Source: Porticoccus sp. (GTDB lineage Bacteria > Pseudomonadota > Gammaproteobacteria > Pseudomonadales > Porticoccaceae). From it: a stretch of DNA of 5,593 nucleotides. This document shows, one piece after another, positions 2 to 5,593 of this stretch (position 1 is the stretch's first letter; every line of letters begins with the position of its first letter). The position numbers were made by a program, and so were the translations under genes. The stretch lies in contig DRHD01000186.1 of the NCBI GenBank assembly GCA_011049795.1, positions 1 through 5,593 of the forward strand, given 5' to 3'. The notes beneath the pieces were generated by a model that was not told the DNA's origin, did no database searches, and saw only the letters and a list, made by a program, of their open reading frames with translations.

Positions 2-1426
2 TTCCGGGAGCATGTAAAACACCTGCTGGATGGCCAGGCCAAAGCCATGGTCGTCACCAGCAGTCGACAGGAAGCCGTGCGCTACCAGCTGGCCATGCTG
101 GCTTACGCCAAAGAACAGAGCTACCAGGACGTGCATCCCTTGGTGGCCTTCTCCGGCACAATTCTGCCGGATGACGTTATTCCCGAAGAAGTCTCGGAAA
201 ACAGCCAACTGCTGAACCCCGGATTGAAAGGCCGTGACCTGGCGGATGCCTTTGATACCGACGATTACAACGTAATGATTGCCGCCAACAAATACCAGAC
301 CGGGTTCGACCAGCCCAAGCTCTGCGCCATGTACGTGGACAAAAAGCTGCAAGGTGTGGATTGCGTGCAAACCCTCTCCCGTTTGAACCGCACCTTCCCG
401 GGCAAGCAAACCTTCGTGCTGGATTTCTTCAACGATCCCAAGGACGTACTGGAAGCCTTTCTGCCGTACTACACCAAAGCCGAGCTGGAAGGCGTCTCCG
501 ATGCGCAGGTCGTGTATGACCTTCAGACAGCTCTGGATGCAGAACAGATTTACCATTGGAACGAAGTCGAATCCTTTGCGCTCGCCTTCTACGACACCCG
601 GGCAGCAGCCAGCAAACTTACCTACTACTGCCAGCCAGCCAAAGAGCGCTTTACCAAGCGTTATAAGAACCTGCTGGATGAAAAGCTCTCAGCCAGGGAG
701 GCTCGCAAGCGGGCCGAAAGGGATGGCGACAAAGTTGGCCTGACCAATGCCGAGAAAACCCTGAAGGACATCGGCGAGGGTCTGGACCAGCTGGATCTCT
801 TCAAGAAGAACTTGACCAGCTTCGTGCGGGCTTATGAGTTTCTGTCACAAATCGTCAGCTATGAAGACCGGGAGCTGGAACAGCTCTGCGTGTTCGCCAA
901 GCACCTCTCGCCCCTGTTACGCATAGATCGCCTGGACGATGATGAAATCGATGTGTCGGAGCTGGCGCTAACCCATTACCGACTCACCAAGCGCAACGAG
1001 CAACAGCTTAAGCTCTCCGAGGAATCCGAAGAGTACGCCCTAAAGCCCCTCTCCGATGTGGGTTCCGGCAAAGCCCATGACCCGGAGAAAAGGCGCCTCT
1101 CTGAAATCATCGAAACGCTGAATGATCTGTTTGGCTCAGAAGTAAGTGATGAAGACCAGCTGCACTTTGCCAAGGGAGTGGCTGACAGGATAAGCCGGGA
1201 TGAATCTGTGATGGCTCAGGTGAATAGCCACTCCCCGGAACAGGTAATGCACGGGCTATTTCCGAAGCGTGTGTCAGACATGGTGCTGGATGCTATGACT
1301 GACAATGAGAAGCTTTCTATGGAGGTGTTGGGGGATGAGCAAACACAAAGAGGCTTTGCCTTGCTGATATTGCGGATGTTGGCTGGATCAAAAACGGTTC
1401 CTCAGGATTTCCAATCCTCAACCTAA
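2..1426 (+). CDS. hsdR: Type I restriction endonuclease subunit R (HsdR), 3' part only
   Basis: This is the motor and nuclease subunit of a type I restriction-modification complex, which translocates DNA and cleaves unmethylated foreign DNA together with HsdM and HsdS. The reading frame is open from base 2, so the gene starts upstream of the window; 474 C-terminal residues are visible. They begin with KAMVVTSSRQEAVRY (the start of the second RecA-like domain). Helicase motif V follows (NVMIAANKYQTGFDQP, about visible residues 90-105), then motif VI (QTLSRLNRTFPGK, about 123-135, with the arginine finger region). The rest is a charged, mostly helical C-terminal region of the kind that contacts the methylase core. 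The N-terminal nuclease domain and Walker motifs are outside the window, so activity cannot be judged. The frame is uninterrupted to a TAA stop. hsdM and hsdS are presumably upstream. Confidence 0.95.
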   Translation, partial: FREHVKHLLDGQAKAMVVTSSRQEAVRYQLAMLAYAKEQSYQDVHPLVAFSGTILPDDVIPEEVSENSQLLNPGLKGRDLADAFDTDDYNVMIAANKYQTGFDQPKLCAMYVDKKLQGVDCVQTLSRLNRTFPGKQTFVLDFFNDPKDVLEAFLPYYTKAELEGVSDAQVVYDLQTALDAEQIYHWNEVESFALAFYDTRAAASKLTYYCQPAKERFTKRYKNLLDEKLSAREARKRAERDGDKVGLTNAEKTLKDIGEGLDQLDLFKKNLTSFVRAYEFLSQIVSYEDRELEQLCVFAKHLSPLLRIDRLDDDEIDVSELALTHYRLTKRNEQQLKLSEESEEYALKPLSDVGSGKAHDPEKRRLSEIIETLNDLFGSEVSDEDQLHFAKGVADRISRDESVMAQVNSHSPEQVMHGLFPKRVSDMVLDAMTDNEKLSMEVLGDEQTQRGFALLILRMLAGSKTVPQDFQSST

Positions 1427-1478
1427 ACACCCGTCATCCTGACACTAACTCGCTTGCAGAGCTTGGTACAAAAGGACT

Positions 1479-1501
1479 ACTATAAATCCACATAGTTACT
1501 A
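1479..1501 (+). promoter_or_regulatory. Candidate operator/promoter region of the AbiE operon
   Basis: The 92-base gap before the AbiE pair contains clustered ACTA/TAGT elements. There is an inverted repeat ACTAT (1479-1483) and ATAGT (1492-1496) with an 8-nt spacer, overlapped by a small palindrome TAGTTACTA (1493-1501). An AT-rich TATAAA (1481-1486) could be a -10 element, but no well-spaced good -35 is visible; TTGCAG at 1454-1459 is weak. Characterised AbiEi antitoxins repress their own promoter by binding inverted repeats, so this is a reasonable operator candidate. The assignment is inference from position and symmetry only. Confidence 0.3.
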
Positions 1502-1507
1502 ATTTGT

Positions 1508-1511
1508 CAGG
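1508..1511 (+). promoter_or_regulatory. Ribosome binding site that sets the AbiEi start
   Basis: CAGG lies 7 nt before ATG 1519. The frame is open back to a TTG at 1504, but no purine-rich site precedes that codon, so ATG 1519 is the better start. Confidence 0.55.
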
Positions 1512-1518
1512 TCAAAGC

Positions 1519-2142
1519 ATGTCTACATCAGAGAAAGTGACCCGCCAACTGCAGCGCATGAGGCGGGGCGTCCCGTTTTCCATCAGTCAGTTCCACGAGC
1601 TAGGCACAGTTACGTCTGTACAAAAAGCGCTGAGCAGGCTTGCCCATGAAGGTGTCATTGAACGGGTCGCCAAAGGCATTTATGTGCGCCCAAAGTCGCT
1701 GGCCAGCATGCCATCGATCAAAATCACCGCAAGCGCAGAACAAATCGCCAAAAAATGGGCACAGCAGAACGGCTATACACTGGTTAGACAAGGCATTGAA
1801 TCCGCTTATCGACTTGGCCTTCAGACACAGGCGCCGGTAAAAACAGTGTTTTGGACAAACGGCGCCAGCAGAACGTTTACGGTTGGCAATGAAGTTGTTG
1901 AGGTGCGACACGTTGCGGAGTCAAAGCTGCGTTGGAAATCGCGCCCTGAGGGCGAGCTACTAAGAAGCTTCACCGTCACCCCAGCCAATTCCGTTAAACT
2001 CAGCGAATTGAAAAAGGCACTGTCCAGACTGAAGCTCTCTGAGTCAGAAAGCCGCACGGCCATCAAGAAGCTTAAGTCGACGCCTCTGCCTGAAGGATGG
2101 CACGTCAAATTGGAGCAATTTGAACAGGAAATGATGGCTTGA
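1519..2142 (+). CDS. abiEi: AbiEi-family type IV antitoxin / transcriptional repressor (DUF6088-like)
   Basis: This is the likely antitoxin of an AbiE system. Family members have an N-terminal winged helix that binds the operon promoter and a C-terminal domain that counters the toxin. With the ATG start the product has 207 residues. The first 60 or so carry the typical pattern: GVPFSISQFHELG, then a recognition-helix region (SVQKALSRLAHEGVIERV), then the wing ending AKGIYVRPK. The stretch QGIESAYRLGLQTQAP followed by VFWTNGASRTF is the hallmark of AbiEi/DUF6088 proteins just after the winged helix. The C-terminal third is helical and basic. It precedes the toxin gene with a 4-base overlap (TTGA), so the pair is one operon with coupled translation. 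I assign the family from remembered sequence patterns, not from a search. Confidence 0.9.
   Translation: MSTSEKVTRQLQRMRRGVPFSISQFHELGTVTSVQKALSRLAHEGVIERVAKGIYVRPKSLASMPSIKITASAEQIAKKWAQQNGYTLVRQGIESAYRLGLQTQAPVKTVFWTNGASRTFTVGNEVVEVRHVAESKLRWKSRPEGELLRSFTVTPANSVKLSELKKALSRLKLSESESRTAIKKLKSTPLPEGWHVKLEQFEQEMMA
2126..2130 (+). promoter_or_regulatory. Ribosome binding site for the TTG-started AbiEii toxin
   Basis: AGGAA lies inside the last codons of the antitoxin gene, 8 nt before TTG 2139. No in-frame ATG exists near the N-terminus of the toxin, and conserved sequence (LEKDIWVAEIL) begins about 37 residues in, so this site supports the TTG start and translational coupling. Confidence 0.7.
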
Positions 2143-3218
2143 CGGATATTTTCGACTTCTATCGCGACCCAGCGAAGCATGGTGACCTGAAGGCCATTTT
2201 GGATTTGGGCGCCCAAAAGCATCCTGCTGGTTTAGCCCAGAATTTCCTGGAAAAGGATATTTGGGTAGCTGAAATACTGCGACTGCTCTACGACGAAAAC
2301 CTGCTGGGCACTCACTCAACAGCCTTCAAAGGCGGAACCGCCCTGAGCAAGTGCTGGAAGACAATAGAACGCTTTTCCGAGGATATTGACCTCTCTATTC
2401 ACTGGAGTGATCTTGCTGGTGAGCCTGATGAAGTAGCAGCGTGGGAGCAGTCCACTCAAAGCAACAGCCAAAAAAAGAAATTCCGTGAGCGGCAGACAAA
2501 GTTACTGACAGAATGGTCAGACGCTTTGGTCAACCGGCTCAACGAGAGGCTGGCTATATACGGGATTGATGGACTTCGAGCAGAGCTGGAACCTGGCTCG
2601 AAAGGGGAAAAGGTGAACGTCCATTTTCCCAGGTTGAGCAGCTACGACAGCAACTACCAACTTGATTATATCCTGCTGGAATTTGGTGGCCGTAATCGGG
2701 GCCGGCCAACAGTAACCCATGACGTTGGATGCTATCTGGCTGAGCTGGAGGATCTTCAAGCTATCGCATTTCCGAAAGCGACGGTTGCCGCCTATCACCC
2801 TGGCTATGTTCTTTGGGAAAAGCTGACTGCCCTGCACCAATTTTCGACGCAGGATAAAGACCCAGACCCGCATCGACTGGCGCGGCATTGGTACGATGTG
2901 GACTGCATTCTTCAACAAGATGAATTCAGTCATGCCCTTGATGCCACGGATGCAATGACAGATGTAGTGACCATGAAGAGCCAGCGCTGGGCACAAAAGG
3001 GTGTCACCTTTGAGGAAGTGCTTGAAGGCCGATTGGTGCTTGTGCCGGAAGGGGAAAGGCTTGAGCAGATTGCAGCGGATCACCAGGCTGCTATTGAGGG
3101 CAGGATGTTTTTTGGTGTCCCGGATGGTTTTGAGACCATCATTTCAAGGTTGCGGAAAGCTCAGGGTAAAATAAATTCCGGCATCAGCCGCAAAAAGCCG
3201 AGGCAATCTCCCAGATAG
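2139..3218 (+). CDS. abiEii: AbiEii/AbiGii-family nucleotidyltransferase toxin
   Basis: This is the toxin of the AbiE system, a DNA polymerase beta-type nucleotidyltransferase. Studied relatives (the MenT toxins) transfer nucleotides to tRNA acceptor ends and stop translation. The family's motifs are present in order in the 359 residues. LEKDIWVAEILRLL (37-50) is the family N-terminal signature. FKGGTALSK (63-71) followed by RFSEDIDLSI (78-87) supplies the hG-G-T and D82-x-D84 metal-binding acids. LLEFGGRNRGRP (179-190) is the second motif region, LWEKLTALHQ (225-234) carries the conserved lysine, and ARHWYDV (248-254) is the C-terminal motif. No key residue seems missing. The start is TTG, sharing bases with the antitoxin stop. 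The basic tail (about 340-359) is unremarkable. The next gene converges from the other strand only 43 bases away. Confidence 0.93.
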   Translation: MTDIFDFYRDPAKHGDLKAILDLGAQKHPAGLAQNFLEKDIWVAEILRLLYDENLLGTHSTAFKGGTALSKCWKTIERFSEDIDLSIHWSDLAGEPDEVAAWEQSTQSNSQKKKFRERQTKLLTEWSDALVNRLNERLAIYGIDGLRAELEPGSKGEKVNVHFPRLSSYDSNYQLDYILLEFGGRNRGRPTVTHDVGCYLAELEDLQAIAFPKATVAAYHPGYVLWEKLTALHQFSTQDKDPDPHRLARHWYDVDCILQQDEFSHALDATDAMTDVVTMKSQRWAQKGVTFEEVLEGRLVLVPEGERLEQIAADHQAAIEGRMFFGVPDGFETIISRLRKAQGKINSGISRKKPRQSPR

Positions 3219-3261
3219 CAACCGACTAAAATCATCAGTGTAAGGCTGTGTTTAGCAGCAC

Positions 3262-4248
3262 CTAAGTAGCGCCGAAAAATGGGCGATCCAATCCCGGACT
3301 ATCAGGCTCGAACGGCAACCCAACATGAGCGTTTTCTCCAAGATCAGCCACAAAGTTTGCCCAAGCATCGGCGACAACTCTTCGGGAAACGTAAGCATTT
3401 GCCATGTGCACAAACGCACTGGAAACATCGTTCAGGTCACAAACGAATTGCGCTAACCGTTCGGTATAATCGTTGCCGTAGGTAAGATAAATTGCATCAC
3501 GATAATTAGCCTTACCCCGATAACGAAATGCTTGGATTAAAAAGTTGACATTCCCTTGTGTTAATTTGGCGTCTCGAAGCGCTTTCGCGGCATTTGTTCG
3601 GAAATTCGTATATCCCCCTTCTTTGAATTCGCGACTCTTTTTAACCACTTCTTCAAGACGCTCCTTTTCATAGTTTGCAGTACCCTTCAAATAAGAATAG
3701 AGAGCACCGAGGGCCATTTCTGAATTTTCTGGGGTGGTATTCTGGTCGAATTTGTTCTCGCCTCGAAGTATTTTCATCGAAGCCTCAATGTTAGCGGGAG
3801 TAAGATCGGTAAAACCAAGATCGAACGGATGCTTTACCCATCTCTGCGATGCGAACTCCCTCCCCCACATCTTAGCCGTGCCACTATGGTTTTGGGGATC
3901 TGCCCCACTCGAAGCGGCCAACATTGCCTTGCTTGAGAAGTAAACGGAGTAGTACCACGCAATGATGGCAGTCTTAACGATGGGATATGGATTGTTGGTG
4001 CCCTTCAACTCACTCAGTGCAGCTTTTTCATGAAACGCCATAAGCAAGTATTGAAAAGCTAAAGTATCTGCCGAATCATTTGGCTGTCTCCGCTGAACGG
4101 CTTGATAGTACTCACACAATCCATGCTGCGAAAAGTCTTCGTGCTGGCATCGGATCGCCAAGGCTCGCATCCAATTAACCGTACCCTGAAATGCGAAACG
4201 CGGGGACGGATGGTCGTGTTGTTCGTAGAACCGCCTCAGCAACCACAT
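3262..4248 (-). CDS. Hypothetical protein, possibly HEPN-related, in a cassette-like position
   Basis: I do not recognise this 328-residue soluble protein. There is no signal peptide or membrane segment. Residues 95-121 (AIIAWYYSVYFSSKAML and on to NHSG) have the aromatic-rich helix followed by a histidine seen in some HEPN-type helical bundles. FRYRGKANYRDAIYLTYG (241-258) is a striking R-x-x-x-N-Y-R-D block that may be a signature of its family. No HEPN RX4-6H catalytic motif is visible, so a nuclease role is not supported. The start ATG has a strong Shine-Dalgarno (AAGGTGAG, 5 nt away or less). It lies 16 nt after the right box of the attC-like site at 4265-4345, as in an integron cassette. 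It converges on the AbiEii gene. A defence role is suggested by neighbours only. Confidence 0.85.
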   Translation of the reverse strand: MWLLRRFYEQHDHPSPRFAFQGTVNWMRALAIRCQHEDFSQHGLCEYYQAVQRRQPNDSADTLAFQYLLMAFHEKAALSELKGTNNPYPIVKTAIIAWYYSVYFSSKAMLAASSGADPQNHSGTAKMWGREFASQRWVKHPFDLGFTDLTPANIEASMKILRGENKFDQNTTPENSEMALGALYSYLKGTANYEKERLEEVVKKSREFKEGGYTNFRTNAAKALRDAKLTQGNVNFLIQAFRYRGKANYRDAIYLTYGNDYTERLAQFVCDLNDVSSAFVHMANAYVSRRVVADAWANFVADLGENAHVGLPFEPDSPGLDRPFFGAT

Positions 4249-4251
4249 GGA

Positions 4252-4259
4252 CTCACCTT
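4252..4259 (-). promoter_or_regulatory. Ribosome binding site of the unknown gene ending at 3262
   Basis: AAGGTGAG on the minus strand sits 3 nt before ATG 4248 (its AGG core is about 8 nt away). It is the strongest Shine-Dalgarno of the minus-strand genes and fixes the start. Confidence 0.7.
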
Positions 4260-4264
4260 AAAAA

Positions 4265-4345
4265 ACATAACGTCCGCAATACATGCGGCTTTATAGTGGA
4301 GGCACAGTCGCAACAAAAAAGCCGCGGCGCCTGCGATTTTTAGGC
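4265..4345 (-). other. Degenerate integron attC-like site
   Basis: Read on the minus strand this 81-base element starts with GCCTAAA (4339-4345; consensus RYYYAAC, last base differs) and ends with GTTATGT (4265-4271; consensus GTTRRRY, one mismatch). Between them is an interrupted hairpin: CGCA (4332-4335) pairs with TGCG (4275-4278). After a symmetric 6-base unpaired spacer, GCGGCTTT (4318-4325) pairs perfectly with AAAGCCGC (4285-4292) around a 25-nt loop. The upstream ORF's TAA stop is inside the left box, and the next ORF begins 16 nt after the right box. Both features are shared with the better site at 5175-5246. The end boxes are imperfect, so this may be a decayed or non-functional site, or a chance hairpin between genes. 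Confidence 0.5.
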
Positions 4346-4351
4346 TTTTTT
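4315..4351 (-). terminator. Possible rho-independent terminator overlapping the Abi gene end
   Basis: AAAAAAGCC (4343-4351) and GGCTTTTTT (4315-4323) on the minus strand form a 9-bp A/T-rich inverted repeat ending in a T run, with a 19-nt loop rich in GC. It begins inside the last codons of the abortive-infection gene. The stem is weak outside the three G-C pairs and the loop is large. It also competes with the attC-like fold, because bases 4318-4323 are used by both. It could work in either direction. Confidence 0.4.
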
Positions 4352-5158
4352 AGCATGCAGCACCTCCATGATGAAGACCACTAAAGTGTGTGCAACATTG
4401 ACAAAAAGCCGCGCTTCTGCAATCACAATACTAGGTGGGCTAGAGCCACGACCATGAGCAGAACCTATGTGTGATCTAAAGGCCCCTACACCATCAATGA
4501 TTGATGAAATACCTTTTAGCACTTTATGCTGATCTGCTGCCAGAGTAGTATCAGCGTTCAAACTTAGGTGCGGCTGAACCACCGCCCACAACGGCATAAC
4601 ATTCAATTTATTTGGCGCCACCAAATTGAAATGCTCTATATAAAACTTAAGAGCTGACTCAATAATAGAACAGGCGGCAGTAACTGATGCGTGAGGGTCA
4701 GTTTGAAGATGCTCTACAGCTCTCTCAAACTCCTTTTCAATAGATGAAAAATTACCCGACTTTAAATAGTCCTGTAGCGTTTTAGAAATTGGAGTTGACG
4801 CAGCTTGAGTAATGCAGCCATTAAGACGGTAGGAAAGCTGGTTCTGGGCCAACGCTGTATTAATCCGCTCTTGGCCCTCCTCGATTCTTGAAGGCGAATC
4901 ATCAAAAAACGAAACAGGTGGCGACTGATCCATGTAGGTCTGAATGATTCTGCCCAAGACCTCAAGAGCATCAACTTCTGGATCTTCATTGCAGCGCTTT
5001 AACCACTCACTGCATTTCCGTTCGCAATTCCCTTCTGGCGCATCACCGGGAGCGCCACTTTCCATGAAAAGGGTCTCCAACTTTGAATGGCTGTAGTAAT
5101 GGCTTGCGATTACCGAAGCAACAGCGCCTATTACTGAGTTTGGAATACTATCGCTCAA
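4340..5158 (-). CDS. Abortive infection family protein with C-terminal Abi_C (HEPN-type) domain
   Basis: This predicted anti-phage protein has 272 residues and no membrane segment. The C-terminal part (about 145-265) matches the Abi_C pattern: DPHASVTAACSIIESALKF, a variable linker, then LKGISSIIDGVGAFRSHIG followed by SAHGRG, then a final helix rich in A, V and H. R228 and H235 form an RX6H motif within the R-x-x-x-G-x-AHG block, typical of HEPN ribonucleases, so RNA cleavage on infection is a fair inference. The N-terminal part (about 10-75) has HYYSHSKLETLF and GAPGDAPEGN, which I recall as a conserved region in front of Abi_C domains; its role is unknown. The start is TTG 5158, with GGAG 8 nt upstream. 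The nearby ATG at 5172 is out of frame, and the first in-frame ATG would delete conserved residues. It is framed by attC-like sites on both sides. Confidence 0.92.
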   Translation of the reverse strand: MSDSIPNSVIGAVASVIASHYYSHSKLETLFMESGAPGDAPEGNCERKCSEWLKRCNEDPEVDALEVLGRIIQTYMDQSPPVSFFDDSPSRIEEGQERINTALAQNQLSYRLNGCITQAASTPISKTLQDYLKSGNFSSIEKEFERAVEHLQTDPHASVTAACSIIESALKFYIEHFNLVAPNKLNVMPLWAVVQPHLSLNADTTLAADQHKVLKGISSIIDGVGAFRSHIGSAHGRGSSPPSIVIAEARLFVNVAHTLVVFIMEVLHAKKA

Positions 5159-5166
5159 TTTCGGAT

Positions 5167-5170
5167 CTCC
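5167..5170 (-). promoter_or_regulatory. Ribosome binding site that decides the TTG start of the Abi gene
   Basis: GGAG on the minus strand lies 8 nt before TTG 5158. Going further upstream in frame, a TAG occurs inside the attC right box, so TTG 5158 is the only plausible start that keeps the conserved N-terminus. Confidence 0.7.
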
Positions 5171-5174
5171 ATGA

Positions 5175-5246
5175 GCCTAACGCTTGCAGTTTCGGTGTGT
5201 ACGCGGCGTAGCCCAGTACACATCCGACAATCTGCAAGTGTTAACC
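5175..5246 (-). other. attC: Integron attC recombination site
   Basis: This 72-base element folds as an attC. On the minus strand the left box is GGTTAAC (5240-5246; one mismatch to RYYYAAC) and the right box is GTTAGGC (5175-5181; perfect GTTRRRY). One base further in, CTTGCAG (5232-5238) pairs perfectly with CTGCAAG (5183-5189). An asymmetric unpaired spacer follows (ATTGT against AAA). Then CGG-A-TGTGTAC pairs with GTACACA-CCG, with the A opposite plus-strand T5223 bulged out, closed by a 13-nt loop (5203-5215). The bulged base lies on the left arm of the minus strand, the arrangement known from cassette top strands such as aadA-type attC sites. Cassette orientation therefore agrees with the minus-strand genes, and attI should lie to the right. 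No integrase is visible in the window. Confidence 0.8.
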
Positions 5247-5390
5247 ATTTTTCTTAGGTGGCGGCGGCGGCGGTGGCGGAGATGGCCGGACATTCGTTGG
5301 AGAAGGTGGATTTACATTTAACCCATCCCTGAACCCACCTTGCCTGTTTGGCGGCATTGGGGGTGGTGGATTTGACCCTTTCTTACCCAT
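5241..5390 (-). CDS. Small proline-rich protein (49 residues), unknown function
   Basis: This small ORF starts at ATG 5390, eight bases before the end of the upstream gene, in another frame. GGAG is 7 nt upstream. The product begins MGKKGSNPPPPMPPNRQGGF and ends with a run of eight prolines followed by KKNG. It is basic and rich in P, G and N, so it is probably disordered. About a third of residues are proline, encoded by CCA, CCG, CCC and CCT rather than by a single repeated codon. The TAA stop lies inside the attC left box, a common arrangement for cassette ORFs. Overlap with the preceding gene suggests translational coupling, so the two may form a functional pair in one cassette. I cannot assign a function; the alternative is a chance ORF in GC-rich sequence. 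Confidence 0.7.
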   Translation of the reverse strand: MGKKGSNPPPPMPPNRQGGFRDGLNVNPPSPTNVRPSPPPPPPPPKKNG

Positions 5391-5593
5391 CGTTGCTCTC
5401 CCAAGTTTTTTCTATGAACTCGACCCACTTAACGTCAGCGACATTAATTAGAATATTTGCCACTCCTACAATACGCGCTTCACTTCCATCATCGAGCAAC
5501 CAGGATGGATCAGCAATAACAAAGTGTCCTTTGGTTGGTTCTGACGGCCATTCAATCGGCCATCCATATAGCCTCCGTTCATCATGCAAGTGC
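5383..5593 (-). CDS. C-terminal end of an unidentified protein, cut by the window edge
   Basis: The frame is open to the right edge, so the true start is outside; 69 C-terminal residues are visible. TTG (5589) and ATG (5585, a different frame) near the edge are not needed as starts. The segment LYGWPIEWPSEPTKGHFVI, then a tryptophan and acidic stretch (SWLLDDGSE), then a final strand-like NILINVADVKWVEFIE, reads like a conserved C-terminal domain. It reminds me of the ends of DUF6338-type proteins, but I cannot confirm this from so short a piece. Its stop overlaps the start of the proline-rich small ORF by eight bases. Both precede one attC site, so they may be a two-gene cassette. Confidence 0.8.
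   Translation of the reverse strand, partial: HLHDERRLYGWPIEWPSEPTKGHFVIADPSWLLDDGSEARIVGVANILINVADVKWVEFIEKTWESNDG
5398..5401 (-). promoter_or_regulatory. Ribosome binding site for the 49-residue proline-rich ORF
   Basis: GGAG on the minus strand lies inside the last codons of the upstream gene, 7 nt before ATG 5390. A correctly spaced site here is the main reason, besides the attC context, to treat the small ORF as real. Confidence 0.55.

Follow-up and report, generated by a model that had tools for sequence, protein, structure and literature searches.

We analysed a 5,593-nt stretch of Porticoccus sp. DNA, referred to below as the window, and with high confidence regard its right 2.3 kb as the distal (3′) end of a minus-strand array of integron cassettes. 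Read from right to left, the array would include cassette 1, with a DUF6338-like gene and a 49-amino-acid ORF, ending in an attC site named attC 1; cassette 2, with an Abi_C (AbiJ-like) gene, ending in the decayed site attC 2; and cassette 3, with a HEPN-like gene, which has apparently lost its 3′ end and its attC at the junction with an hsdR/abiE defence block. A preliminary description had already taken the right half of this DNA for a cassette array after noticing attC 1. That reading is now borne out by a further attC in the same orientation, which had been overlooked, by boundaries at the core sites, and by one relative that lies in an integrase-linked array.

The attC 1 site is located exactly where it had been placed, at nucleotides 5175 to 5246, and is identified by its fold, comparison with shuffled sequences, two covariance models (R1 and R2) and its bulges. 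Read along the minus strand it starts with GGTTAAC and ends with GTTAGGC. Its size, 72 bp, is inside the range of 57-141 bp given for attC sites, whose consensus has R″ (RYYYAAC) and R′ (GTTRRRY) at the ends (PMC3053210). The R′ box (GTTAGGC, 5181-5175) agrees exactly with this consensus and the R″ box (GGTTAAC, 5246-5240) has one mismatch. The L boxes, CTTGCAG and CTGCAAG, pair perfectly and without a gap, and the 72 nt folded as single-stranded DNA form one closed stem, with z-scores of −6.0 for the plus strand and −4.7 for the minus strand that none of 200 shuffles equalled on either strand; both features had been described correctly.

Other details of the hairpin differ from what had been proposed. 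The fold of the plus strand, which is the attC bottom strand, contains not one but three bulges of a single base each (T5231, C5228 and T5223), all of them on the R″-L″ arm, i.e. the 3′ arm of this fold. Extrahelical bases are by definition on the R″-L″ arm and number two or three per attC (PMC2727003), which is what attC 1 has. The minus-strand orientation deduced from the bulge therefore stands in spite of the wrong count, since all three bulges are on the expected arm. The pair formed by an extrahelical G in L″ and a T located 6-8 nt away is particularly conserved (PMC2727003), and the bulged bases T, C and T differ from it; other extrahelical bases and spacings are tolerated by some integrases (PMC3053210). 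The asymmetric unpaired spacer claimed for the site is not clearly present, as a G.T wobble and a C-G pair leave the spacer between the R and L boxes almost closed. Pairing in the spacer of a test attC site lowered recombination 27-fold (PMC2727003), and for this reason the activity of attC 1 may be below that of a canonical attC.

To search for attC sites we built our own covariance models instead of using that of IntegronFinder. Model R1 includes 14 sites from relatives (alignment A3), seven of which are downstream of Abi relatives (five close ones plus L011 and L013); an earlier 17-site alignment, A2, was dropped after L012 (two sites) and L015 were found misaligned and one site truncated. 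Model R2 includes 21 sites from three integrase-linked loci of other genomes, seven from L024, 12 from L052 and two from L056. The latter two loci have no Abi relative and none of the seven Abi-downstream sites of R1 is in R2, although the R2 training sites were located by R1 and include L024:6951-7045, the site preceding the Abi relative of L024. The E-values of both models are rough by the search tool's own account. In an unfiltered search of the window R2 matched 4265-4345 on the minus strand with 27.8 bits (E 7e-6) and 5175-5246, also minus, with 18.1 bits (E 0.0021), the third-best match being at 9.9 bits; the maximum in 56.5 kb of control DNA, consisting of 11 loci hand-picked as not integron-linked, was 9.0 bits. 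The refuting test that came with the preliminary description therefore does not go against it. Matches in 167 kb of relatives extended down to 17.7 bits, and some of them may be false. Model R1 gave a weak 11.1 bits (E 0.12) to 5175-5246 on the minus strand versus 5.9 on the plus strand, in agreement with the proposed orientation. The 47.1 bits that R1 gave to 4265-4345 are not independent evidence, because half of its training sites (7 of 14) are downstream of Abi relatives. We also observed that the attC at 1606-1689 of L056, beside the Marinomonas lutimaris integrase, has an R1 score (77.5 bits) resembling those of sites downstream of the Abi gene, yet L056 has no Abi relative.

The combined results indicate that the window very probably has two real integron attC sites, the 5175-5246 hairpin being one of them. 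An intrinsic terminator or other regulatory hairpin between two minus-strand genes would also appear as a strong stem-loop between genes, and the sequence ATTTTTC does follow the hairpin on the plus strand. However, there is no T run after it on the gene-carrying minus strand, a terminator scan found none at 5175-5246, the end boxes fit R″ and R′, R2 matches the site, and the core site is the point of divergence among relatives; we regard a terminator as very unlikely. A search of Rfam with the window at E-values up to 1 gave no match. With a finder that combines R-box motifs and L pairing, attC 1 scores 14; in 1200 dinucleotide shuffles of the entire window this value was reached once. That single shuffle is what can be said for a chance inverted repeat with attC-like ends, an explanation that we find barely credible in view of the second same-strand attC at cassette distance and of a boundary common to 10 of 21 relatives.

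The second site, attC 2, encompasses nucleotides 4265 to 4345 on the minus strand, with the boxes GCCTAAA (R″) and GTTATGT (R′), and is recognised by its R2 match and by its counterparts in relatives. In five relatives (L004, L005, L007, L015 and L027) an attC is found directly after the same Abi gene, with scores of 52-84 bits from R2, whose training set did not include these sites. In the window's own copy three of the 13 model pairs are non-standard and the fold of 4256-4345 is no better than that of shuffled sequences (z −1.1 and −1.2), and we therefore read attC 2 as a partly decayed attC copy. Four terminator-like matches were found in 4200-5593, where 1.3 were expected, and all of them are within 4274-4345. 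The window thus has a gene flanked by two attC sites of the same orientation, as in a cassette array.

The core-site boundaries delimit a complete cassette of 910 bp (cassette 2, 4271-5180, minus strand), which carries the 272-amino-acid Abi_C gene at 4340-5158 on the same strand. The gene has a TTG start preceded by GGAG at 5170-5167. Its product matches PF14355 (E 2.5e-13, residues 190-264) and the PADLOC AbiJ model (E 1.9e-11, 42.2 bits, residues 127-270), and 447 homologs were found among 1179 candidates. Residues R228 and H235 are invariant in 27 aligned sequences and fit the HEPN RX4-6H nuclease motif, which makes abortive infection by RNA cleavage the likeliest function of the protein. 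A role in phage defence is likely both for this gene and for the HEPN-like gene of cassette 3, as judged from family membership only.

The boundaries of cassette 2 were further defined by comparison with relatives of the Abi gene, which were taken from genome contigs (26 loci) and plasmids. The region upstream of the gene was compared in 21 of the 26 loci, leaving out L012 (no comparable start), L020 (contig end), L025 and L029 (partial) and L028 (distant), and a leader was considered shared when the local alignment score was 11 or more over 15-21 bases. Ten relatives (L004, L005, L006, L007, L010, L011, L013, L015, L024 and L027) have the leader in common with the window from the core site onward; it begins at G in seven of them and at TT in L006, L013 and L027. 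In the 40 bases before the core site only 6-15 positions agree with the window in these same ten relatives. The cassette boundary is consequently at G^TT of the attC 1 R′ box, and the leader shared from the core site together with the attC sites found after the gene in relatives identify the Abi_C gene as the content of the cassette. The other 11 relatives have scores of 5-9, below the threshold, so that the Abi gene occurs with other leaders too. Two plasmid loci that are not among the 21, L002 and L003 (Rahnella and Enterobacter), have an upstream sequence without the cassette leader when read by eye. The distribution of the gene is compatible with its being mobile by other means as well. 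Near DNA matches of the window in plasmids were limited to two records, both hsdR fragments; distant matches comprised 97 records with 60-80% identity, and the 20 listed of these 97 have 66-72% over the Abi gene. Viral contigs included two distant Abi relatives (37%).

To the left of attC 2 is the gene of cassette 3 (3262-4248, minus strand), coding for a 328-amino-acid protein with a HEPN-like predicted fold. It was characterised through homologs, an alignment and a structure model, as searches of Pfam, NCBIfam and PADLOC with the window's protein gave no match; 903 homologs were found among 2062 candidates. The predicted structure has a pLDDT of 85.9, with residues 316-328 under 50, and HEPN chains rank first and second in a structure comparison. 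In an alignment of 29 rows, 27 have a different, shorter tail after about residue 315. The last 13 residues of the window's protein are unlike those of its homologs, and for this reason the 3′ end of the gene and its own attC appear to have been lost. An attC for cassette 3 was sought in 3219-3262 by fold, R1 and R2, and none was detected; neither was a strong fold in 3215-3275. We consequently take 3219-3303 as the place where the broken distal part of the array meets the hsdR/abiE block, on the grounds of the divergent tail and the lack of an attC match there. The block, identified with Pfam and PADLOC, includes the hsdR C-terminus (2-1426), abiEi (1504-2142) and abiEii (2139-3218; AbiEii, PADLOC 630.8 bits), all on the plus strand and therefore tail to tail with the array. 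No attC match above 9.9 bits was found in 2-3218, and the block is taken as being outside the array.

In L063 and L062, relatives of the cassette 3 gene have a GTTATAT core 15 nt before their start. The gene in L063 is followed by an attC that scores 28.3 bits with R2, and the family is thus carried on a cassette in this locus at least, outside the present genome. No sites next to the gene were scored by R2 in L062, where they were read by eye, and R2 scored no attC in L064. A relative in Vibrio europaeus pVEu is also apparently cassette-borne. The gene was found in two of 145 genomes, in 35 plasmid records, among which L062 alone was inspected, and in none of the viral contigs. We propose tentatively, as a rather doubtful idea, that the gene represents a large, integron-cassette-borne HEPN-like family that could be an unnamed anti-phage system, stranded here with the AbiJ-like cassette beside hsdR/abiE as a cassette array feeds a chromosomal defence island.

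The part of cassette 1 present in the window includes two minus-strand ORFs. The first (5383-5593) codes for the C-terminus of a DUF6338-like protein whose 5′ end is beyond the window; it was assigned through a match to PF19865 (E 0.072) that falls short of the family cut-off, and through its 50.8% identity over 61 amino acids to an annotated DUF6338 protein. The second (5241-5390), defined by ORF reading, overlaps the end of the first and codes for a 49-amino-acid proline-rich peptide. Its TAA stop is inside the R″ box of attC 1; cassettes commonly have a stop codon within R″ or next to it. The peptide had no family match and no match in plasmids, using as query 47 of its 49 residues plus one upstream codon. 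The cassette 1 gene was found in one plasmid record and in none of 194 genomes, the latter in a search without a positive control. No promoter-like sites were found in 4200-5593, versus 1.7 expected; cassettes are usually devoid of such sites.

The preliminary description had predicted attI and an integron integrase to the right. Neither is found in the window, which ends at 5593. An integron integrase that passes the TIGR02249 cut-off was found in 10 of the 22 genomes with Abi relatives and not in the other 12, while the 14 control genomes all gave weak TIGR02249 signals, none over the cut-off. Linkage of the Abi gene to an integrase was established for L024 only. This locus, an 8.2-kb contig of an Alteromonadales MAG, includes an integrase gene at 375-1340 on the minus strand (TIGR02249, 380.9 bits against a cut-off of 265) and, 5.7 kb from it, an Abi relative at 7056 that is interrupted after about 182 residues. 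The region in between has seven attC matches on the strand opposite the integrase, three of which trained R1. The layout of L024 is the one expected to the right of the window, in the DNA beyond position 5593, although it is no proof of it. The region 375-8142 of L024 also includes a gene for a TIR-domain protein (2704-3597), which with the interrupted Abi relative makes up a defence-like integron cargo.

Cassettes or attC sites without an integron integrase are known as CALIN, and the array could be such a fossil, kept with its attC sites by an integrase-less genome. The decay of attC 2, the apparent absence of the 3′ end of cassette 3 and the 12 of 22 genomes without an integrase over the cut-off speak for this variant of the array reading, while attC 1 is nearly intact. 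The fossil differs from the array preferred here only in the right flank beyond the window, and we consider it a real possibility, albeit not a probable one.

If the array is served by an integrase of the host, this enzyme would bind the folded plus strand (the bottom strand) of attC 1, strand exchange would take place between G5181 and T5180 in R′, the predicted crossover point, and cassettes would be added or removed upstream, i.e. to the right, of attC 1. This follows the established mechanism, in which the integrase binds the folded bottom strand and recombination occurs in R′ (PMC2727003 and PMC3053210). With the broken pairs of attC 2 and a third cassette without attC, the last site to recombine efficiently is probably attC 1, and the Abi_C and HEPN-like genes located to the left of it have probably become stranded. 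Cassette genes could plausibly be fixed beside a defence locus in this way, through the decay of an attC and the truncation of the terminal cassette.

Starting from one attC spotted by eye, the analysis has thus verified the site and arrived at an entire cassette, and AbiJ-like and HEPN-like genes join those that integrons are likely to carry for defence. The protein of cassette 2 resembles known Abi_C/AbiJ-like proteins in matching both PF14355 and PADLOC AbiJ, the latter match being modest and the N-terminal part uncovered by both. The attC sites of the window are like those of L052 (Marinobacter sp. ELB17), L056 (Marinomonas lutimaris) and L024 in their boxes, their head-to-tail order on one strand and their length. 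In contrast to the window, where no integrase is visible, the sites of these loci are near integrase genes, and attC 1 differs from them in its near-closed spacer and its T, C and T bulges. Defence genes in Xanthomonas cassettes have been described in PMC12444791, which refers to Darracq 2025, Getz 2025 and Kieffer 2025 for integron-borne anti-phage cassettes. The window is like these systems in having likely defence genes as cassettes, their function being deduced here from families only, and since integrons with anti-phage cassettes are already in print it is a further instance of a published kind.
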